The notes under the pieces are model-generated. The model searched no databases. It was not told where the DNA came from and worked only from the letters and a program-made list of their open reading frames with translations. From positions 1 to 64,000 of the forward strand of contig JAOEWO010000010.1 in the NCBI GenBank assembly GCA_028383925.1: a stretch of 64,000 bases of DNA, in the 5' to 3' direction. Positions within the stretch are counted from its first letter, which is position 1; each line of letters opens with the position of its first letter. The stretch comes from Winogradskyella sp. (lineage in GTDB: Bacteria; Bacteroidota; Bacteroidia; Flavobacteriales; Flavobacteriaceae). The position numbers and the translations under genes were made by a program. This document shows, one piece after another, positions 11,798 through 53,274 of the stretch.

Positions 11798-12157
11798 ATG
11801 AAAAACTTTAAACCCTATTACGTCGTAATTTTTACATCAACACAAACAGAATACACTGCTGGTTATATTGAAATGGCTAACAAAATGGAAACCTTAGCCA
11901 AACAGCAAAAAGGTTACTTAGGTATTGATAGTGCAAGAAACGAGAAGTCATCTAAGCTTAGTCATGCTTTAGGTATTACTGTAAGTTATTGGAAAAGTTT
12001 AGAGGCTATAAAAAATTGGAAAGCAAATACACAACATCTATTTGCACAACAAAAAGGACGAGAACAATGGTACAACTGGTATAACGTAAAAATTTGTAAA
12101 GTAGAGCGCGAATACGAATTTAGTTTAGATGATGCTAAATCTAGTTCTTTAATGTAA
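11798..12157 (+). CDS. Antibiotic biosynthesis monooxygenase (ABM)-like protein
   Basis: This 119-residue soluble protein has the dimeric alpha/beta-barrel pattern. A first strand (YYVVIFTSTQ) is followed by a helix (MANKMETLAKQQKGYLGIDSAR), where the GYLGIDSAR segment is typical of ABM-domain proteins. The strand LGITVSYWKSLEAIKNWKAN and a final helix with HLFAQQKGREQWYNWYNV follow. Members range from quinol monooxygenases to stress proteins of unknown substrate, so function stays open. Its 3' end overlaps the convergent T9SS cargo gene by 17 bases. Confidence 0.72.
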   Translation: MKNFKPYYVVIFTSTQTEYTAGYIEMANKMETLAKQQKGYLGIDSARNEKSSKLSHALGITVSYWKSLEAIKNWKANTQHLFAQQKGREQWYNWYNVKICKVEREYEFSLDDAKSSSLM

Positions 12158-14765
12158 AATGCCCTTTAAATTCTTGCCCTTCAATTTTTATAACGTACCA
12201 ATAATCTGAAGTTGGTAAACGGTTATTATTAAACGTTCCGTCCCAATTGACATTTCTATTAATTGCTGAGAATAGAAGTTTACCGTAACGATCAAAAATA
12301 TAAACCTCGGAAGTCAGGAAAAACTCTAAAATATTTAAAGAGAAAAAATCATTAACACCATCTGCATTTGGTGTTATAAATTTAGGTATAAAAAAATGTA
12401 AATGCTGTTGCGTAATTATAGTATCACAAACCGATGACTTAACATATACAGTATATAACCCACTAATTATATTGCTAAATATATTACTAGTTTGAAAATC
12501 TTCACCATTTAATGAATATAGATAATCAACTGAATTAAGAAGATTGACAATTATAGTGCTTCCGTCTGATACGACACTTTCAATAATTGGGTTTTCAATT
12601 GCTGCTACAACAAACGTTATTATTTCTGTAAAGCAACCGTCGGTAATTTGAACCTCATAACTACCAGCTGCATCAATGGTTACAGATGATGTCATTGCAC
12701 CAGTATTCCAATTGTAAGTTGGGCTAATTATTGACGATGTTGCCTGTAGAAGTAGTGTTTCATTTTCGCAAAGTGATAAAAATTCTTCTCTAGAATCTAA
12801 GGGTTGGGTCCCTGTAATTTCCCAAGTACAATTAGCATTATCAAAAACTGCTACTTGCCAACATAATAAATTAGTAGGCTCTAATGGTTGAGTTCCTGAC
12901 ACTTCCCAAGCACAAGATAAGTCATTGAAAGTAGCCGTCTCCCAACACTCTAAATTTGATGGCACTGTAGGTTGTGTACCTAAAATATCCCAATTACATG
13001 TTGTTGTATTAAACGTTGTTGTTTGCCAGCATTCTAAATTAGTTGGTGCTAAGGGTTGTGTGCCAGAGACATCCCAAGCACAGGTTACATTATTAAATAT
13101 TGGTATTTGCCAGCATTCTAAACCAGTTGGTTGCATCGGTTGTACACCTATAATATCCCATGTACACGTCGTGTTATTAAATGCAGTTGTCTCCCAACAT
13201 GCAATAGCTGGTTGTACTGGTTGCGTACCAGATATTTCCCAAACACATGTGGTATTATTAAAAGTTGTTATTTCCCAACACTCAAGATTGGTTGGTGCTA
13301 TTGGCTGAGTTCCTGTTATATCCCAAGCACATGTTATGGTATTAAATGTTGCGGTCTCCCAACATTCTATAGTTGGCTGCAACGGTTGCGCACCTATAAT
13401 ATCCCAACTACAAGTAGTGGTATTAAATTGTGTGGTTTCCCAACATTCTAAAACAGGTTGTACAGGTTGTGCACCTGTAATGTCCCAAACACAAGTTATA
13501 TTATTAAACGTAGCGGTCTCCCAACATTCTATAGTTGGCTGTAACGGTTGTGTACCTGTAATATCCCAAGTACAAGTAGTGGTATTAAATTGTGTGGTTT
13601 CCCAACATTCTAAAACAGGCTGTACAGGTTGTGTACCAGCAATGTCCCAAACACAAGTTGTATTGTTAAACGTTGCAGTTTCCCAACATTCTAAAACGGG
13701 CTGTATAGGCTGAGTACCTGTTACCGTCCAACTACAAGTTGCATCACTAAATGTAGCAATTTCCCAACACGCTATGACTGGTTGTGCTGGTGCTTGTGCT
13801 ATATTTATCTGGTATATATCGGAGAATGTAATACAATCTTCGTTATTTAAATTAACTGCAATCTCAGCAACTTTAGCTCTGTAAAGTGATGTTGTTGTCA
13901 CCCCTGTTAAAGTAAGAGCAGCATTACTTTCCCCAACCAAGTCTACCCAATTAATACCATCATTGCTAACTTGCCATTGATAAAAATGGCTACTAAACAC
14001 GGCATTATCTGGTATAGCCGTTATAGTCTCAATAAACGGAGTTTGACTACTACATAAAGAAACGGTATTATTAGTTGTAGAATCTTCAACTGTTATAGCG
14101 TCACCACAACTCTTAAATACAATATCGTCTATCGCTAAATCATTACCACAACCACCAACACCATTATTAATAATCTTTAATATTACAGATGTTTGTGCAG
14201 GTAGCGTTTGAAAAACCAAACCATACTGTTGCCAAGCTGGTGCAACCGTACCAAATATACTACCTGTATTACCACTAGCTAATAGATTTGTATCTGTTAT
14301 ATCCCAAATTTCGAATCTAACATTTACCGGAATTCCATTTCCACCACAACCAGAACTTGGTAATATATTCATTAACCAAGACGAAAATTCGTAAGTCGTA
14401 TTTTCACAAAGTCCGTTTATATTTGTCTTATAAAATTCTCCAGTAGTAAAACTTGCATTAACTATTAATGCTTTTCCGTTGGTATCGCCAGGAGTGTGAT
14501 CGCTAGGCATATTCCATCCAAAAGAAAAAGTACTGCTACCAACAGTATAACTACCGTCTTGTGGCCCATTGGTCCCTACAAAATTATAAGTTGTTGTACC
14601 AACCGGTAATTGTGGTCCATAATTCGTTCCTGTACCAAAGTCTTCCGTAAATATAGGATCACCAGAATTACCTTGACAGAATCCTAACTGCGCATGTAAT
14701 CCTTTTGTAAAAAAAGAAATACAAAGAAATATGAGTACCTTATGATCTAATAAAGAGTTTTGCAC
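12141..14765 (-). CDS. T9SS type B cargo protein with twelve CW-type tandem repeats
   Basis: A GTG start at 14765 gives a clean signal peptide (HKVLIFLCISFFTKGLHAQ) and sits just after a promoter-like pair. The longer frame from ATG 14846 would overlap the pbpC start codon. The 874-residue product has an N-terminal jelly-roll-like domain (FTEDFGTGTNYGPQLP to DLAIDDIVFKSCG) and an Ig-like segment. Twelve tandem ~27-residue repeats of the form CWETATFNNTTCVWDITGTQ follow. The C-terminus is the gliding-motility-associated type B sorting domain (FIPKFITPNADGVNDFF, VYIFDRYGKLLF, YWYVIKIEG, FTLKN), which directs type IX secretion. Each repeat carries two cysteines, which suggests disulfide-stabilised units in a surface adhesin-like protein. 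Confidence 0.85.
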   Translation of the reverse strand: MQNSLLDHKVLIFLCISFFTKGLHAQLGFCQGNSGDPIFTEDFGTGTNYGPQLPVGTTTYNFVGTNGPQDGSYTVGSSTFSFGWNMPSDHTPGDTNGKALIVNASFTTGEFYKTNINGLCENTTYEFSSWLMNILPSSGCGGNGIPVNVRFEIWDITDTNLLASGNTGSIFGTVAPAWQQYGLVFQTLPAQTSVILKIINNGVGGCGNDLAIDDIVFKSCGDAITVEDSTTNNTVSLCSSQTPFIETITAIPDNAVFSSHFYQWQVSNDGINWVDLVGESNAALTLTGVTTTSLYRAKVAEIAVNLNNEDCITFSDIYQINIAQAPAQPVIACWEIATFSDATCSWTVTGTQPIQPVLECWETATFNNTTCVWDIAGTQPVQPVLECWETTQFNTTTCTWDITGTQPLQPTIECWETATFNNITCVWDITGAQPVQPVLECWETTQFNTTTCSWDIIGAQPLQPTIECWETATFNTITCAWDITGTQPIAPTNLECWEITTFNNTTCVWEISGTQPVQPAIACWETTAFNNTTCTWDIIGVQPMQPTGLECWQIPIFNNVTCAWDVSGTQPLAPTNLECWQTTTFNTTTCNWDILGTQPTVPSNLECWETATFNDLSCAWEVSGTQPLEPTNLLCWQVAVFDNANCTWEITGTQPLDSREEFLSLCENETLLLQATSSIISPTYNWNTGAMTSSVTIDAAGSYEVQITDGCFTEIITFVVAAIENPIIESVVSDGSTIIVNLLNSVDYLYSLNGEDFQTSNIFSNIISGLYTVYVKSSVCDTIITQQHLHFFIPKFITPNADGVNDFFSLNILEFFLTSEVYIFDRYGKLLFSAINRNVNWDGTFNNNRLPTSDYWYVIKIEGQEFKGHFTLKN
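12797..13772 (-). repeat. Twelve in-frame 81-84-bp tandem repeats
   Basis: These encode the CW repeats of the T9SS cargo protein. Each unit has CW at the start, a second Cys about ten residues on, then W-[DE]-[IV]-x-G-x-QP and a P-rich linker. Units 2, 4 and 6 (ETATF type) alternate with 3 and 5 (ETTQF type), which suggests duplication of two-unit blocks. Confidence 0.85.
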
Positions 14766-14768
14766 GTT

Positions 14769-14798
14769 TAAATATATATATAAATAGGTGTAACCAAA
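14769..14798 (-). promoter_or_regulatory. Promoter of the T9SS cargo gene
   Basis: On the minus strand, TTTG (14798-14795) is followed after 18 bases by TATATTTA (14776-14769), close to the Bacteroidota TTG / TAnnTTTG pattern. The -7 box ends three bases before the GTG at 14765, so the transcript would be leaderless or nearly so. Confidence 0.5.
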
Positions 14799-14828
14799 CA
14801 CAGTTTTCGATGATCGGACACTTAAACT

Positions 14829-14836
14829 TAATTTTG
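14829..14836 (+). promoter_or_regulatory. -7 box of pbpC
   Basis: TAATTTTG matches TAnnTTTG and lies 8 bases before the pbpC ATG. A TTTC at 14805-14808 is a weak -33 candidate. The short distance implies a very short leader. Confidence 0.5.
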
Positions 14837-14844
14837 TATGGCAC

Positions 14845-17196
14845 ATGTATAGGTTAATTAGACATATTAAAGACCATAAGGTAAAATCTATTGTGATTTT
14901 TGCCCTTTGTGTGTTCTACTATTTCTGTTTACCACAACACTTATTTAAAGACCCTACCGCAACTGTAATTACGAGTAACACCGATAAATTATTAGGAGCA
15001 CTAATTGCAGAAGATGGGCAATGGCGATTTCCAGAAAGTGATTCTATACCTTCAAAATTTAAAACGTGTATTCTTCAATTTGAAGATGAATATTTTTATA
15101 AACATCCTGGCTTTAATCCGATCTCTATATTTAAAGCCATAAAGGGTAACTTAAGTTCTGGTTCTATAAAAAGAGGTGGTAGTACCATAACACAACAGGT
15201 TATTCGTTTATCTAGAAAAGGACAATCTAGAACTTACTTTGAAAAACTAAAAGAACTAATTTTAGCCACACGTTTAGAATTGAGAATGTCTAAAGATAAC
15301 ATCTTAAAACTTTACGCCAGCCATGCACCATTTGGTGGTAATGTTGTTGGAGTTGATGCTGCATCTTGGCGCTATTTTAATAGAAACGCTACAGATTTAT
15401 CGTGGGCAGAAAGTGCAACACTTGCTGTTTTACCAAATGCGCCAAGTTTAATCTATCCTGGGAAAAATCAAAAAAAACTGCTAGAAAAACGAAACAGATT
15501 ATTAAAAAAACTTTTAAATAACGGTACTATAGATTTACTAACCTATAACCTATCTATTGCAGAAAGCTTGCCACAAAAACCTTATCCGTTACCACAAATT
15601 GCACCACATTTATTGCAGAAAATAGCTAGAAAAAATCGAGGAAAACGTATAAAAACAACAGTTGATATTGCTTTACAAGAGCAGACTAATACTATTGTAA
15701 AACAGCATTACAGTCTTTTAAAACAAAATGAAATTTACAATATTTCGGTATTAATATTAAATGTAAATACAAGAGAAATATTAACTTACATTGGCAATTC
15801 GCCAACAGATAAAGCACACCAAAAAAGTGTAGATATTATAGATAAACCAAGAAGCACAGGTAGTATATTAAAACCGTTTTTATATGCGTCTATGCTAGAT
15901 GCTGGCGATTTATTACCTCATACCTTAGTCGCTGACGTACCAACGCAATTTGGCAGTTACCAACCCGAAAATTTTAATAAATCTTATGATGGCGCTGTAC
16001 ATGCTAACGAAGCTTTATCGCGTTCACTTAATGTACCTGCAGTACGTATGCTACAAGATTTTGGGTTAGATCGTTTTTACCATTATTTAAAAGCGTTACG
16101 GCTTAAAGATTTAAAATACAATGCCAATCATTACGGTTTATCGTTAATACTTGGTGGTGCAGAAAGTAACCTTTGGGATTTGTGTAAAAGTTATGCAGGT
16201 ATGGCCTCTACTTTAAATCATTTTAATGAAAATTCTAGTCAATATTTTAAAAATGAATTTTGTCAACCTACCTATAAATTTAATGTACCTGTAGATTTTG
16301 GTAAACCATCTCAAGAAAAGCAAATTTTTGATGCCGCTTCAATTTATCTCACTTTTGAAAGTATGAAACAAGTTAACCGACCAGAGAGCGATGAAAGTTG
16401 GGAATTCTATAACTCTTCGCAAGACATAGCTTGGAAAACAGGTACCAGTTTTGGTTTTAGAGATGCTTGGGCAATTGGCACTACAAAAAATTATGTTGTT
16501 GGTGTTTGGGTCGGTAACGCAGATGGAGAAGGGCGGCCAGGATTAGTGGGTGTGCAAACATCAGCACCTATTCTATTTGATGTTTTTGATGTGTTACCAA
16601 AAAGCAATTGGTTTACAAAACCTTATGACGAAATGTTAGAGGTTTCAATTTGTAAAAAAAGTGGTTATAGAGCTTCAGTAATTTGTGATGCTGTAGAAGA
16701 AAGGTATATTCAAATAAGCGGACAAAAAACAGAACCTTGTCCTTATCACACCCTATTACACTTAGATACCTCTGAGCAATTTCAAGTAAATTCTTCTTGT
16801 GAGTCTGTTTCAAATATTACAAATAAACCATGGTTTGTACTACCACCTTTACAGGCTTATTATTATAAAAATAAGAATCCTTTTTATAAAGTAGCACCAC
16901 CTGTTAGAACAGACTGTGGTGAAGCTAATAGTGTTTTTATGGCATTTATTTACCCAAATCAACAAAGCACTATCTTTTTACCAAAAGATTTTAACGGTAA
17001 TACAAACGACTTAATCTTAAAGGTTGCACACTCTAAACCTCAACTTCAACTCTATTGGTATGTAGATAACCTATTTGTTGGCCATACCAAAGACATACAT
17101 GACATGGCTGTTTCGCCATCACCTGGAGACCACGTTATTACTGTTATAGATGAATTAGGAAATGAGATAAAGCATAAAATTACTATTTCAGAATAA
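14845..17196 (+). CDS. pbpC: Penicillin-binding protein 1C (bifunctional peptidoglycan synthase)
   Basis: This 783-residue class A PBP has an N-terminal membrane anchor (residues ~13-30). The GT51 glycosyltransferase shows catalytic Glu80 in FEDEYFYKHPG and RGGSTITQQ (110-118). The transpeptidase domain has SxxK at Ser340-Lys343 (GSILKP), SxN at Ser394-Asn396 (SRSLN) and KTG at 531-533. The C-terminal BiPBP-like region (residues ~690-783, DGxHxIxVID-like GDHVITVIDELG) marks the PBP1C subfamily. It polymerises and crosslinks peptidoglycan at the inner membrane. In Enterobacteria pbpC is adjacent to the alpha-2-macroglobulin gene; here that gene is at 4971-10559 with three genes between. Confidence 0.93.
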   Translation: MYRLIRHIKDHKVKSIVIFALCVFYYFCLPQHLFKDPTATVITSNTDKLLGALIAEDGQWRFPESDSIPSKFKTCILQFEDEYFYKHPGFNPISIFKAIKGNLSSGSIKRGGSTITQQVIRLSRKGQSRTYFEKLKELILATRLELRMSKDNILKLYASHAPFGGNVVGVDAASWRYFNRNATDLSWAESATLAVLPNAPSLIYPGKNQKKLLEKRNRLLKKLLNNGTIDLLTYNLSIAESLPQKPYPLPQIAPHLLQKIARKNRGKRIKTTVDIALQEQTNTIVKQHYSLLKQNEIYNISVLILNVNTREILTYIGNSPTDKAHQKSVDIIDKPRSTGSILKPFLYASMLDAGDLLPHTLVADVPTQFGSYQPENFNKSYDGAVHANEALSRSLNVPAVRMLQDFGLDRFYHYLKALRLKDLKYNANHYGLSLILGGAESNLWDLCKSYAGMASTLNHFNENSSQYFKNEFCQPTYKFNVPVDFGKPSQEKQIFDAASIYLTFESMKQVNRPESDESWEFYNSSQDIAWKTGTSFGFRDAWAIGTTKNYVVGVWVGNADGEGRPGLVGVQTSAPILFDVFDVLPKSNWFTKPYDEMLEVSICKKSGYRASVICDAVEERYIQISGQKTEPCPYHTLLHLDTSEQFQVNSSCESVSNITNKPWFVLPPLQAYYYKNKNPFYKVAPPVRTDCGEANSVFMAFIYPNQQSTIFLPKDFNGNTNDLILKVAHSKPQLQLYWYVDNLFVGHTKDIHDMAVSPSPGDHVITVIDELGNEIKHKITISE

Positions 17197-23897: not shown

Positions 23898-24413
23898 TTA
23901 CTCTGCTTGCTTTTCTCCTTTACAACATGCTTTTTTACAGTCTGCTGCACAGGCTTCTTTATCTTTTTTTGCTTCACTAGCACAACAAGCCTTCTTACAA
24001 TCTACTTTACAAGTTTTCTTAGCAGTACCAAAGTCTTCAACTTTCTTCATGTCTTTAACTGAATAGGTATCTGCGACACTAACCACCGTTTTTTCTAATG
24101 TTTCTGGTGAAACTTTAGCTTCATCATACTCAACCATAGCTAATCGTTTGTCAAAATCTACTTTTGCAGATTTAACACCTTCCATCTTAGCCATTTTCTT
24201 CTCTATAGTCTTAGCGCAACCCATAGCACATGTCATACCATCTATACCAAATTCTACTTTTGCGTAAGTAGCGTTAGGATCTAAAGTTTCAGAAACATCT
24301 TTTTTTGACACTTCTATATCTACAGTTTTAACTTCTGGCTGACTCTCATCTTTACATGATACTGCTAATGTGCCAACAAAAGCAACTAAACATATTTTCT
24401 TTAAGATTTTCAT
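23898..24413 (-). CDS. HMA-domain lipoprotein with duplicated cysteine-rich tail
   Basis: This 171-residue lipoprotein (GTLAVSC, Cys20) contains a heavy-metal-associated ferredoxin-fold domain in residues ~50-120. The metal loop GMTCAMGCAKTIEKKM carries Cys62 and Cys66, which are three residues apart rather than the usual CxxC. The C-terminal tail has two copies of CxxDCKKACC (Cys135-144 and Cys155-164), giving eight further cysteines, like a small metallothionein. It is likely to bind soft metals such as copper, silver or mercury in the envelope. No transporter for these metals is adjacent. Confidence 0.8.
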   Translation of the reverse strand: MKILKKICLVAFVGTLAVSCKDESQPEVKTVDIEVSKKDVSETLDPNATYAKVEFGIDGMTCAMGCAKTIEKKMAKMEGVKSAKVDFDKRLAMVEYDEAKVSPETLEKTVVSVADTYSVKDMKKVEDFGTAKKTCKVDCKKACCASEAKKDKEACAADCKKACCKGEKQAE

Positions 24414-46773: not shown

Positions 46774-47016
46774 ATGGCACCTACTATACTATATTGCGAC
46801 TTCTTTGGCCATAAATACGAAATTTCAAAAAAAGTCACCAACCACGTTAAAGAATATACGTGTACCTGCTGCAAAAAGCAATTAACAACAAACAGCAACG
46901 GAAAATTAATTGAGTTAACACCTAAGTATCAAGAAATAAATGAAGCTTTATCTCGTATTTACAACAACAGAATGATGCGTTTAAAGCAAAAAACTCTCAG
47001 TTCATCGGTTTATTAA
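46774..47016 (+). CDS. Small zinc-ribbon-like protein, paralogue 1
   Basis: The 80-residue protein has the pattern C-x3-GH-x-Y (YCDFFGHKYEISKK), then EYTCTCCKK (CxxC) and TNSNGKLIELTPKYQEINEAL. One Cys and one His in the first knuckle plus CxxC in the second would make a single CHCC zinc site. The C-terminus is a basic amphipathic helix. It closely matches the next gene (47100-47330) and more distantly 53020-53274. Function unknown. Confidence 0.65.
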   Translation: MAPTILYCDFFGHKYEISKKVTNHVKEYTCTCCKKQLTTNSNGKLIELTPKYQEINEALSRIYNNRMMRLKQKTLSSSVY

Positions 47017-47099: not shown

Positions 47100-47330
47100 A
47101 TGAAAAATGTCTATTGCTCTTTATTTGGTCACGACTACAAAGTATCCAAAAATGTGACATATCACGTTAAAGAATACAAATGCAAACAATGCGCGTCTGA
47201 GATGACCATTGATGGTAATGGAGATTTTATTCCACTTACACCAAAACACAGAGAAATAAACTCTGTTTTAAACCGGGTACATAATAAACGTTTAGAAAAA
47301 AGTCAAAGTCTTATTATGTCTAATCTTTAA
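47100..47330 (+). CDS. Small zinc-ribbon-like protein, paralogue 2
   Basis: The 76-residue protein shares YC-x2-FGHDYKVSKNVTYHVKEYK with paralogue 1, then CKQC and GNGDFIPLTPKHREINSVLNR. The tandem arrangement suggests a local duplication. The last 11 bases overlap the convergent thiL gene. Function unknown; the fold is probably a minimal zinc ribbon. Confidence 0.65.
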   Translation: MKNVYCSLFGHDYKVSKNVTYHVKEYKCKQCASEMTIDGNGDFIPLTPKHREINSVLNRVHNKRLEKSQSLIMSNL

Positions 47331-48473: not shown

Positions 48474-49730
48474 ATGAAATTAAACCCCTTTAAGAAATTT
48501 GCTATAGCTTCTATTTACTGTATTGCCATAGTTTTTGGTTGCTCAGATGATGATATTAATACAAACCTACCAACTGTATTTATACCTAATTTTCCTTGCG
48601 AAAACGGTATGGCAGGCCCTTTTCCATGTAATGGTATAGACATTTTATCTATTGTAAGTAATGAGACACTTGGTGGTACACAAATTGCAAGAGCTAGTGA
48701 TGCTTGGGGATGGACAGACCCAACAACTAACAATGAGTATGCAATTTTAGCCATGTCTAACAGCACTGCTTTTATTGATATTACAGACCCTACAAATCCG
48801 TTATTTCTAGGCAGACTAAACACTAGTGCTGGCACAAACATATGGCGAGACGTAAAAGTGTATAACAACTACGCTTTTATTGTTGCAGATGGTGCCGGTG
48901 ACCATGGTATGCAAGTTTTTGACCTCACAAAATTAAGAGATATTGAAACTACAGAAGAGCCACAAACCTTTGAAGCTGAAGCAATTTACACAGGCGTTGG
49001 TAGTTGCCATAACATTATAATTAACGAAAGTGAAGCCGTTGCTTATTTGGTTGGGTGCACCTCAACTAATGGAGGCGGACCAATTTTTATAGATATCTCT
49101 AACCCAATTGCCCCTTCATTTTTAGGAGAATATGCCGCAGGTGGTTACTCGCACGATGCACAAGTGATTACTTATAACGGTCCTGATACCGATTATAGTG
49201 GTAAAGAAATTTATGTGGGCAGTAATGGTAATACTGATAAAGTTGTGATTTTAGATGTTACTGACAAAACAAATGTAATACCTATAAGTGAATTTACTTA
49301 CCCAGAAACAGCCTATGCACATCAGGGCTGGTTTACAGAAGACCATGCCTATTTTATTTTAGGAGACGAATTAGATGAACAAACCTTTGGTTTTAATACC
49401 AAAACTTTAATTTTCGACTTTAATGATTTAGACAACCCAACCCTATCTTCTACTTACTTTGGGCCAACTGAAGCTATAGATCACAATGGCTATGTATTAG
49501 GTAACGAATATTATTTAGCAAACTATAGGGCTGGCATGCGTATACTAGATATTGGCAATATAGCAGCACCTAATAATGCAATGACAGAAACTCATTTTAT
49601 TGATACTTACCCCATAAGTGATAGTGCAAATTTTAATGGTGTTTGGAGTGTTTACCCCTATTTTGCTAGTGGAAACATTGTAATAAGCGATATAGAAGGA
49701 GGACTCTTTATTGTTAGAAAAAGTAACTAA
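48474..49730 (+). CDS. Choice-of-anchor B / LVIVD-repeat beta-propeller lipoprotein
   Basis: The 418-residue lipoprotein (AIVFGC, Cys23) has repeats of the LVIVD type: NSTAFIDITDPTNPLFLGRL, GGPIFIDISNPIAPSFLGEY and KVVILDVTDKTNVIPISEF. The start region ASDAWGWTDPTTNNEYAILA is typical of choice-of-anchor B proteins. SHDAQVI, HQGWFTED and DHNGYV place histidines and acidic residues at loop positions that could bind a metal. First gene of a four-gene operon; the next start codon follows the stop codon with no gap. The operon context suggests a surface or periplasmic role with the MbnP/MbnH pair. Confidence 0.8.
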   Translation: MKLNPFKKFAIASIYCIAIVFGCSDDDINTNLPTVFIPNFPCENGMAGPFPCNGIDILSIVSNETLGGTQIARASDAWGWTDPTTNNEYAILAMSNSTAFIDITDPTNPLFLGRLNTSAGTNIWRDVKVYNNYAFIVADGAGDHGMQVFDLTKLRDIETTEEPQTFEAEAIYTGVGSCHNIIINESEAVAYLVGCTSTNGGGPIFIDISNPIAPSFLGEYAAGGYSHDAQVITYNGPDTDYSGKEIYVGSNGNTDKVVILDVTDKTNVIPISEFTYPETAYAHQGWFTEDHAYFILGDELDEQTFGFNTKTLIFDFNDLDNPTLSSTYFGPTEAIDHNGYVLGNEYYLANYRAGMRILDIGNIAAPNNAMTETHFIDTYPISDSANFNGVWSVYPYFASGNIVISDIEGGLFIVRKSN

Positions 49731-51068
49731 ATGCCTATTAAACTTACATATCTTTTTGTATTTATAATTAGCCTACTACTATTATCTTGTAATGATGATG
49801 ATACATCTGTAACTAACCCAAATGTAACCACTAGTCTTATAAAAACTTACGGTGGTTCTAATAATGATAGTGGACAATCTGTAATTAGTACTAGCGACAA
49901 TGGTTATGCCGTTTTAGGCTTTACCCAAAGTACAGATTTTGATATTACCGATGCTATAGACGAAAGTTTTGATTATTGGGTATTAAAATTTAATGCAGAC
50001 GACACCATAGAATGGCATAAAACTTACGGAGGATCGGGATATGACAAAGGCAGAACTATTATTGAAACTCAAGACAACGGTTATGCCATTTTAGGCACCA
50101 GTACTAGTAATGATGGTGATGTATCTGGCAGCTCTGGCATGCAAGATTATTGGTTAGCTAAACTCAACTCTACAGGTAATATATTATGGCAAAAATCTTT
50201 TGGCTATGAAGGCGCAGACTCAGGTATTTCTGTAATTCAAACTCATGATTTAGGGTATTTAGTTTCTGGAATTTTAGATGTAACAGCATCTGGTGGTGAA
50301 GGCAATACCTCAAGAACAGCAAGCAGACATGCAGGCGGAGACTATTGGGTTGTAAAACTAAATGCAAACGGCGATATAGAATGGAGTAAAATTTTTGGTG
50401 GCAACCTAACAGACACACCAGAGGGCATTATTCAAACTAATGATAATGGCTTTATTATAGTAGGTGGCTCTGATAGTACAGACACAAACATCTCGAGTAA
50501 TATTGGGTCTTATGATTTTTGGGTTATACGTATTTCACAAACTGGAGAATTGATTTGGGAAAAATCTTATGGTGGAGATGAAATTGATGAAGCCAGAGCC
50601 ATTACAGCTTCTGGCGACGGAAACTATATAATTGCAGGTGATACAAGAAGCAATACCAATGACGTAAGTAATAATAATGGGGCTGCAGATTTGTGGGTTA
50701 TAAAAATAACACCTCAAGGAGATTTAATTTGGGAAAAGACCATTGGAGGTACAAGTTTTGATGTTGCTAGAGCTATAACCAAAACTCAAGACAACTCTTT
50801 TTTATTAGCCGGAAGTTCTCGCAGCAGTAATCTAGACGTATCAGAAAATAAAGGGCAAAACGATGCTTGGGCACTTAAAATAAGTAGTGAAGGAAATTTA
50901 CTTTGGGAAACAACTATTGGTGGCTCAAATATAGATTTTGCATATGGTATAGCAGAACTAAATGACATGTCTATAATTGTTGTTGGTGATACAAGTAGTA
51001 ATGACGGAGATATCACAGAAAATAAAGGATTTACCGATTTACTACTCATAAAATTGAATGAAATATAA
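49731..51068 (+). CDS. Seven-repeat beta-propeller lipoprotein
   Basis: The 445-residue lipoprotein (SLLLLSC, Cys20) consists almost entirely of seven ~50-residue repeats. The consensus is K-T-x-GG-S-x-x-D-x-G-x-x-I-x-T-x-D-N-G-Y-x-I-x-G-x-T-x-S, each followed by D-x-W-V-x-K-[IL]-[NT]-x-x-G-x-[IL]-x-W. Seven copies suit a seven-bladed propeller. It begins directly after the previous stop codon, so translation is probably coupled. No catalytic residues are seen; a scaffold or binding function is likely. Confidence 0.78.
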   Translation: MPIKLTYLFVFIISLLLLSCNDDDTSVTNPNVTTSLIKTYGGSNNDSGQSVISTSDNGYAVLGFTQSTDFDITDAIDESFDYWVLKFNADDTIEWHKTYGGSGYDKGRTIIETQDNGYAILGTSTSNDGDVSGSSGMQDYWLAKLNSTGNILWQKSFGYEGADSGISVIQTHDLGYLVSGILDVTASGGEGNTSRTASRHAGGDYWVVKLNANGDIEWSKIFGGNLTDTPEGIIQTNDNGFIIVGGSDSTDTNISSNIGSYDFWVIRISQTGELIWEKSYGGDEIDEARAITASGDGNYIIAGDTRSNTNDVSNNNGAADLWVIKITPQGDLIWEKTIGGTSFDVARAITKTQDNSFLLAGSSRSSNLDVSENKGQNDAWALKISSEGNLLWETTIGGSNIDFAYGIAELNDMSIIVVGDTSSNDGDITENKGFTDLLLIKLNEI

Positions 51069-51073
51069 TTAAA

Positions 51074-51844
51074 ATGAAACAGACTTTTATACTCTTCTTA
51101 ATATCGTTGTGCGTTTTGTCTTGTAGCGATAATAGCGATCCGAGTCAAAACATCTCAGCAACACCAACATTTAAGTTTTCGCACTATTGGAATAATGAAG
51201 CTGTAACAAGTAGCGACTTCAGCACCATACAATACACAAACCAAAATGGAGACCTTTTAAGTATTGAACGCTTGCGCTATGTAATTTCTGATATTACGTT
51301 TACAACCGCTACTGGCGAAAACCTTAGATTAGGAGATTACAATCTTGTAGATGTTACAAATAACAATGGCTTAAATTATATACCAACAACGCAAATACCA
51401 ATTGGGACGTATGCCAATGTTTCATTCACCTTTGGATTTGACAATGAAGACAACGCAAAAAACTATTTAGACTTAAATTCTGAATCATTTAACGTACCAG
51501 ATATGTTAGGAGGTGGCTATCACTACATGCAATTTGATGGTAAATACTTAGACACCAACGCTACTGAACAAGGATTTAATTACCACGCTATAAGAGCAGT
51601 AGACAATCCTGGTGCAAACCCAACATTTCCTCAAGATACATTCTTTACTGTAAACTTAGGGCAAATAACAATTACAAATACAGTCGAAATTGAAATTAGA
51701 GCCAATCTTGCAGAATGGTTTAGAAACCCTAATGTTTGGGATTTAAATGAACTAAACCAAACACTAATGCCTAATTCTGCCGCACAAATAATGATGTTTG
51801 AAAATGGGCAAACCGTCTTTTCTTTAGGTGAAGTAATTCCATAA
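51074..51844 (+). CDS. MbnP-family copper-binding lipoprotein (putative)
   Basis: The 256-residue lipoprotein (CVLSC, Cys17) matches the MbnP family in layout: FKFSHYWN, YTNQNGDLLSIERLRYVIS, an internal GTYANVSFTFGFD, DMLGGGYHYMQFDGKYL, NYHAI and a C-terminal NLAEWFRNPNVWDLNE. In studied members a partner di-heme enzyme (MbnH) converts a tryptophan to kynurenine, which makes a copper site. Only three tryptophans are present here (39, 215, 222), so the target can be tested. MbnH is encoded five bases downstream. Family call is good; copper binding is inferred. Confidence 0.82.
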   Translation: MKQTFILFLISLCVLSCSDNSDPSQNISATPTFKFSHYWNNEAVTSSDFSTIQYTNQNGDLLSIERLRYVISDITFTTATGENLRLGDYNLVDVTNNNGLNYIPTTQIPIGTYANVSFTFGFDNEDNAKNYLDLNSESFNVPDMLGGGYHYMQFDGKYLDTNATEQGFNYHAIRAVDNPGANPTFPQDTFFTVNLGQITITNTVEIEIRANLAEWFRNPNVWDLNELNQTLMPNSAAQIMMFENGQTVFSLGEVIP

Positions 51845-51849
51845 TTTAA

Positions 51850-52908
51850 ATGAAGTTAAAACTACATCATACTATTATTATAATGCTCTTTTTTTTGAAT
51901 TGTTCAAATGAAGATATGGGTTACGAGCCTACACCACTAGTTTTAAACATCCCTCAAGTATTTGCCGAAAATATAATTGCACCTGTAATACCTGCTAACA
52001 ACCCAATGACTGTTGAAGGAGTCGCACTAGGCAAACGTTTGTTTTTTGACACCATCTTGTCCTCAGATAACTCAAAAGCTTGCGTAAGTTGCCATAGTCC
52101 GCAAAACGCTTTTACAGACAGTTCACCAACAAGTGCTGGTGTAGATGGAGTTTTTGGAAGTCGCAACTCAATGCCATTATTTAATTTAGCATGGAACTAC
52201 AACGAACGTTTTGCCTGGGATGGTAAAGAATTAAGTTTAGAAAGACAAGCAGAAGAGCCCGTACAAAACCCCATTGAATTACATAGTAATTGGGATGATG
52301 CAATTGTAAGGCTACAATCGCACCCAGAATATCCAGAGTTATTTAGACTTGCATTTAACACCAATGCAATAACAAAGGAGTTAACCACAAAAGCCATAGC
52401 GCAATTTGAACGAACGTTAATTTCTGCAAACTCAAAATTCGATAGATACACCCTTGGACAAAGTTCATTAACGGCTCAAGAATTAAATGGACTAGATCTC
52501 TTTTTAAGAGAAGATAAAGGAGATTGTTTTCACTGCCATGGCAATCCTAATAATCCTTTGTGGACCACTAATGATTTTCATAATAACGGATTAGATACTA
52601 CTTTTTCAGATTTAGGATTAGGTGCCATAACAGGAGACCCTAATGATAACGGAAAATTTAAAACACCATCCTTAAGAAATCTAAGCTTTACAGCACCATA
52701 TATGCACGATGGTCGTTTTAATACTTTAGATGAAGTTATAAATCATTACAGCGAAGGCCTTCAAAATTCACCAACCATAGATCCGTTAATGAAAAAAATT
52801 AACGAAGGTGGTGTACAATTATCTAATCAAGAAAAACAAGATCTTAAAGCCTTTTTATTAACATTATCTGATCCTTCATTTATTTCTAATCTAGAGTTTC
52901 AAAATTAG
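51850..52908 (+). CDS. Di-heme cytochrome c peroxidase / MauG-type enzyme (MbnH-like)
   Basis: The 352-residue lipoprotein (FFLNC, Cys18) has two c-type heme motifs, CVSCH (78-82) and CFHCH (226-230). Typical MauG/CCP segments are also present: ALGKRLFFDTILSSDN, FNLAWNYNERFAWDGK, KFKTPSLRNLSFTAPYMHDG and LKAFLLTLSDP. Next to an MbnP gene it is best read as MbnH, which oxidises tryptophan in MbnP with peroxide; a plain peroxidase detoxification role is the alternative. It ends the four-gene operon and is presumably periplasmic. Confidence 0.88.
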   Translation: MKLKLHHTIIIMLFFLNCSNEDMGYEPTPLVLNIPQVFAENIIAPVIPANNPMTVEGVALGKRLFFDTILSSDNSKACVSCHSPQNAFTDSSPTSAGVDGVFGSRNSMPLFNLAWNYNERFAWDGKELSLERQAEEPVQNPIELHSNWDDAIVRLQSHPEYPELFRLAFNTNAITKELTTKAIAQFERTLISANSKFDRYTLGQSSLTAQELNGLDLFLREDKGDCFHCHGNPNNPLWTTNDFHNNGLDTTFSDLGLGAITGDPNDNGKFKTPSLRNLSFTAPYMHDGRFNTLDEVINHYSEGLQNSPTIDPLMKKINEGGVQLSNQEKQDLKAFLLTLSDPSFISNLEFQN

Positions 52909-53019: not shown

Positions 53020-53274
53020 ATGAAACCTACGCAAAACATGACTTTGCCGTGTGCTGTATTTGGCCACAATTACATAAAGTCTAAAACAAATAGTAATCGT
53101 ACATCTGAGCTAACGTGTTGTAATTGCAAAACTATTGTAACTACAGATTTAAGAGGAAATTTTGAAGCATCAACAATTTCAAATAAAAGGATACAATCTA
53201 TTTTAATAAAATTATTTCGGTTAAATCTCAACCTCACAAAAGTTACATTTAGCTCTCAAGTAAACTATAATTAA
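53020..53274 (+). CDS. Small zinc-ribbon-like protein, paralogue 3
   Basis: The 84-residue protein repeats the pattern of the pair at 46774-47330: LPCAVFGHNYIKSK, then ELTCCNCKT (CxxC) and TTDLRGNFEAST. The C-terminal half has diverged to a hydrophobic/basic helix (RIQSILIKLFRLNLNL). It follows the MbnH gene after 111 bases. Function unknown. Confidence 0.6.
   Translation: MKPTQNMTLPCAVFGHNYIKSKTNSNRTSELTCCNCKTIVTTDLRGNFEASTISNKRIQSILIKLFRLNLNLTKVTFSSQVNYN

Follow-up and report, generated by a model that had tools for sequence, protein, structure and literature searches.

Pairs composed of an MbnP protein and the di-haem enzyme MbnH occur in many bacteria. Copper-binding MbnP holds one Cu(I), and MbnH oxidises a Trp of MbnP. 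The first Trp of the WxW motif of MbnP reportedly becomes kynurenine (Manesis et al. 2021), and we know of no established role for such pairs outside methanotrophs. The closest described counterpart of the locus considered here is the MbnP/MbnH pair of Methylosinus trichosporium OB3b (PDB 7l6g and 6e1c), in which a protein of the MbnP fold is accompanied by an adjacent di-haem enzyme. A second parallel is provided by the MopE/SACCP and CorA/CorB systems of methanotrophs, where a surface copper protein is co-transcribed with a di-haem peroxidase (PMC3912023).

The locus lies in a stretch of 64,000 nucleotides of Winogradskyella DNA (‘the window’, meaning the whole stretch that was analysed) and consists of four lipoprotein open reading frames, termed A, B, C and D, that are separated by 0, 5 and 5 bases. 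This arrangement had been described in the original prediction, and was reproduced from the reading frames of the window. The genes, and the residues discussed below, are as follows.

48474..49730, + strand: A, choice-of-anchor B / LVIVD seven-bladed propeller lipoprotein (TIGR04312, choice-of-anchor B, 514 bits against an NCBIfam cut-off of 100; AlphaFold model, propeller matches)
49008..49010, + strand: His179 of A, one of four family-wide His
49152..49154, + strand: His227 of A, one of four family-wide His
49320..49322, + strand: His283 of A, one of four family-wide His
49482..49484, + strand: His337 of A, one of four family-wide His
49731..51068, + strand: B, seven-repeat propeller-like lipoprotein (seven repeats; NF047494, SBBP propeller lipoprotein of the LipL53 family, 53.8 bits, below the cut-off of 400)
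50214..50222, + strand: Ala162-Asp-Ser164 of B (His-Asp-His in loci without C-D)
50646..50648, + strand: Arg306 of B (48 of 48 loci with C-D, 0 of 23 without)
51074..51844, + strand: C, MbnP of the GGGYH subtype, with FxV instead of WxW (PF20243, MbnP, 98.3 bits against a Pfam gathering score of 27)
51182..51190, + strand: His37-x-Trp39 of C (FxV group: His37 40/40, Trp39 39/40)
51488..51496, + strand: Phe139-Asn-Val141 of C (W-x-W or W-x-V in related MbnPs)
51521..51523, + strand: His150 of C, in GGGYH (invariant in the GGGYH subtype, absent in canonical MbnP)
51584..51586, + strand: His171 of C (invariant in both subtypes)
51850..52908, + strand: D, MbnH-like di-haem enzyme (TIGR04039, MbnH, 262.1 bits, below the cut-off of 362.85; best PDB match 6e1c; haem residues)
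52081..52095, + strand: first CxxCH haem motif of D (84/84)
52216..52218, + strand: Trp123 of D (matches a Trp of 6e1c in the alignment)
52525..52539, + strand: second CxxCH haem motif of D (84/84)
52747..52749, + strand: Tyr300 of D (matches a Tyr of 6e1c in the alignment)

A belongs clearly to the choice-of-anchor B family and carries its four His. Such propellers are widespread and, to our knowledge, unstudied; the literature searched, which covers the field in part, contained no mention of them by that name, and neither a link between MbnP and propellers nor a ‘metallo-mystery pair’ was found there. The locus differs from the family at large in that, across the phylum sample and among the matches listed, A adjoins MbnP only in the window's own family, the Flavobacteriaceae.

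The likeness to OB3b extends to the fold of C and its conserved MbnP His, and to the two haem motifs, the Trp and the Tyr of D, for which TIGR04039 is still the best-scoring model; Tyr300 is presumably a haem ligand, by analogy with MauG. In contrast, the motif that reads WNW in OB3b is FNV in the window, where His150 is extra, all four products are lipoproteins and the operon includes two propellers. A search of C against TIGR04052, which NCBIfam names MbnP_like_WxW for the copper-binding family, gave no match at E values up to 1; relatives in three loci (L071, L073 and L077) do match that model, all under its cut-off of 140. MopE/SACCP and CorA/CorB share with the window the pairing of a surface copper protein and a di-haem peroxidase (PMC3912023), but their sites are formed by kynurenine and two His.

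Within the genus itself, the solo canonical pairs (five loci viewed, L243-L247) belong to the same two families as C and D, but display an MxWxW motif, and neither A nor B was found beside them. The two neighbours that could be named by profile were a TonB receptor (L246) and a Fur-family gene (L245), and the pairs of L243, L244 and L247 adjoin a small Cys-containing membrane protein and a Cys-rich protein of 332 residues, both of which lack a Pfam match in L247.

The original prediction had also placed the operon outside any methanobactin-like neighbourhood; MbnA, MbnB and MbnC were indeed not recognised near it by eye in the list of window reading frames, and its surroundings showed neither a copper transporter nor a copper regulator. 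Three small, related Cys-containing proteins with weak DUF1660 matches (window positions 46774-47016, 47100-47330 and 53020-53274) lie on both flanks of the locus, and similar proteins recur in most of the genus loci. Further away are a lipoprotein that combines a heavy-metal-associated domain with a Cys-rich tail, a candidate copper chaperone (23898-24413, minus strand), and a large protein with many near-identical Cys/Trp repeats (CWETATFNNTTC) and, as judged by eye, a gliding-type C-terminal region (12141-14846, minus strand).

Conservation of the operon and its two MbnP-MbnH lineages

The conservation of the propellers with MbnP and MbnH, on which the original prediction principally hinged, was borne out in 38 loci of the genus and in 47 other genera. 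A search for PF20243 covered 99 relatives, including 60 from Winogradskyella, and the 38 genus loci with an MbnP of the window's kind were taken (the other 21 genus genomes have a canonical MbnP elsewhere, or none). The order A-B-C-D is found in all 38, with contig ends that cut A in L040 and remove D in L048. A second scan, which overlaps the other samples, retained 80 of 432 relatives of C, and 79 of these display A-B-C-D with at least one A, the remaining one (L166) being without A at a contig end. In a sample of the family comprising 149 genomes, one per genus, A was found above the cut-off in 76 including the window, and one place was viewed in each: MbnP lies directly behind A-B in 47 other genera (L071-L117, of which 46 carry the complete set of four and L117 is cut), and 28 genomes have no C-D beside A (L118-L130 and L228-L242). 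Those 28 include one locus cut by a contig end (L235), two located off the thiL-suf locus (L232 and L242) and two with A but without B (L236 and L239). C and D are present or missing together at the A-B locus, and one further genome (G331), found in a separate search, also carries all four genes. PF20243 has no match at all in 26 of the 28 genomes without C-D, which indicates that A-B does not need MbnP. The presence of C-D is not associated with NosZ (25 of 47 genomes with C-D and 12 of 28 without, in a hand tally that counts fragments).

The surrounding region is itself stable, since thiL and sufA both lie within the fetched stretch of 57 of 60 family loci, and the remaining three have one of them; gene order alone is therefore only moderate evidence of a functional link. 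Alternatively, C-D might have inserted downstream of a propeller pair that is well expressed and been co-inherited simply because the region rarely rearranges, as the constancy of thiL and sufA, the existence of A-B without C-D and the occurrence of propeller-free GGGYH-type pairs in a different family of the same order (L248 and L250) would all allow. Three further observations render this explanation unlikely: the short spacers (medians of 5, 3 and 6 bases across the operons), the arrival of two different MbnP-MbnH lineages at one place, and a set of residues in B that track the presence of C-D.

The second of these observations concerns four loci (L071, L072, L073 and L075), all between thiL and sufA, where the pair behind A-B carries the canonical MxWxW motif. 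In quick trees without bootstraps, these pairs cluster with the solo canonical pairs of the genus (L003-L008; 88 in the C tree, 91 in the D tree), and the GGGYH-type pairs are set apart from the canonical ones (99 and 98, respectively). Thus, two different MbnP-MbnH lineages have joined the propeller pair at the same locus, and the agreement of the C and D trees on this point argues that the link between A-B and C-D is probably functional. Four genus loci (L039, L044, L049 and L068) present a different case: their C is of the WxW type and nests among other genera. Of these four, L049 alone is represented in the D tree, where its D falls with that of the window, so that C seems to have been exchanged alone. 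The MbnH proteins of the four canonical operon loci also display four His, around positions 90-96, which the window type lacks.

The third observation concerns the second propeller. His162 and His164 of B are found in 23 of 23 aligned loci without C-D and in none of the 48 with it (window included), as part of a GHDH motif that is present in all 23 (L118-L130 and L228-L241) and likewise missing from the 38 B proteins of the genus. His138 follows the same pattern less strictly (23/23 without C-D, 10/48 with it), and Arg306, which shows the opposite distribution, extends to all 85 rows with C-D in a larger alignment. The presence of C-D changes only once on the B tree (98), so that these shifts amount to one event and might be a coincidence; the tree, rooted at its midpoint, does not set the direction as gain or loss of C-D, and when an outgroup B was sought outside the family, only remote repeats were recovered.

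Conserved histidines and the substrate tryptophan

The four His of A are found in every row of the three main sets (66 with C-D, 13 without and 42 from the genus) and in 13, 12, 14 and 14 of 16 more distant rows for His179, His227, His283 and His337, respectively, where the misses are gaps except for one. They begin the inner strands of successive blades, which makes a shared metal site likely, and A probably holds a metal ion through them. The His patterns of A and B together lend some support to possible roles for the propellers as scaffold and as metal ligand. Extra copies of A precede the operon in tandem in six loci (L041, L052, L057, L059, L066 and L083, with up to five in L083), and the duplicated copies scanned in three of them (L041, L052 and L059) carry a type IX secretion sorting tail. 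Another A protein (L034, 5288-7075) displays a long, Asp-rich, calcium-type repeat stalk between its lipid anchor and its propeller.

The WxW motif of the copper-binding MbnP corresponds to FxV at residues 139-141 of the window protein, where the published kynurenine site is consequently unable to form at the known residue. The kynurenine copper site envisaged in the original prediction is therefore weakened for the window's genome, and is still plausible for most other genera, where the first Trp is retained in 41 of 46 readable operons. Across the 85 readable operon C proteins (window, genus and family) the motif is FxV in 40, WxV in 29, WxW in 12 and canonical in 4; the 38 genus loci divide into 34 FxV and 4 WxW, and the 46 readable loci of other genera into 5 FxV, 29 WxV, 8 WxW and 4 canonical. 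WxW is basal in the C tree, followed by WxV and then by FxV, with four changes in all.

One alternative is that kynurenine or other Trp chemistry has moved within MbnP, such that MbnH would oxidise Trp39, Trp215 or Trp222 near His ligands and the copper site would have been relocated. Each of these Trp is found in 39 of 40 proteins of the FxV group, His37 in 40 of 40 (and in 23/29 and 8/12 of the groups that keep the canonical Trp), and MbnH is intact. However, the same three Trp are equally or nearly as conserved in the WxV group, which possesses the canonical Trp; they are not replacements that arose upon its loss, and a relocated site is on balance quite unlikely.

The persistence of MbnH raises a further possibility, namely that it acts as a surface peroxidase or radical sink, with MbnP and the propellers as structural elements and with no role for copper. 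Both CxxCH motifs, Trp123 and Tyr300 are conserved in 84 of 84 D proteins, including the partners of FxV proteins that have lost the substrate Trp, which speaks for such a device. His150 and His171 of MbnP, by contrast, are each invariant (40/40) in the FxV group and suggest metal binding, and we regard a peroxide device devoid of copper as improbable to much the same degree. The proposal that the propellers are themselves further Trp substrates of MbnH, in favour of which the window's B is rich in Trp (12 residues), fares far worse and is very improbable, as neither A nor B has a Trp that marks loci with C-D, those present are equally conserved where MbnH is missing and look structural, and B even has one, near residue 36, that is typical of loci without C-D.

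A possible cell-surface complex for metal handling

The reading that we tentatively prefer, at somewhat less than even chances, is that the four lipoproteins form a complex that handles metal at the cell surface and in which MbnP-MbnH took over a metal role from B. There is good support for a conserved surface complex that includes an MbnP-MbnH module, with surface exposure as a prediction from the lipoprotein sequences: at least two acidic residues occupy positions +2 to +6 after the lipobox Cys in 76 of 86 C, 71 of 97 B and 50 of 85 D proteins (raw counts, without a background control), and such stretches resemble the surface export signals described in PMC5080379. The corresponding count for A (51 of 120 rows) is unreliable, a crude finder of the Cys having been misled by extra Cys. 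Metal handling, docking and the take-over of function are what we infer from the MbnP family, from the His patterns of A, B and C and from the exchange in B; the metal would probably be copper, by analogy with the family.

According to this preferred reading, the wider-spread core would be A-B, the propeller pair of the thiL-suf locus, which in lineages without MbnP and MbnH carries the extra His cluster on B (H138, H162 and H164). In the part of the tree that holds the window, B lacks HxH and possesses Arg306, with an MbnP-MbnH pair directly downstream, and MbnP, docked on B, may have assumed its metal-holding role, while a peroxide-driven MbnH would mature or guard the metal site. In most genera the first Trp is retained, and MbnH might still form kynurenine from it. 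In the window's clade, where that Trp has become Phe, the site would have to be His-based (H37, H150 and H171) or to employ another Trp, for which W39 would be the best candidate, or else MbnH would act elsewhere. A more detailed version, in which B lost its His cluster as MbnP-MbnH joined, Arg306 represents a docking change, and the window's clade dropped kynurenine chemistry and kept the di-haem enzyme for another residue or protein, is doubtful as a whole.

The locus provides a natural series (WxW, WxV, FxV and no pair) within one cultivable marine family, in which the MbnH enzyme is kept throughout. Two questions are thereby made testable: how MbnH acts without its known substrate Trp, and which proteins are the partners of an MbnP-MbnH pair. 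The locus also offers a first lead on the choice-of-anchor B propellers.
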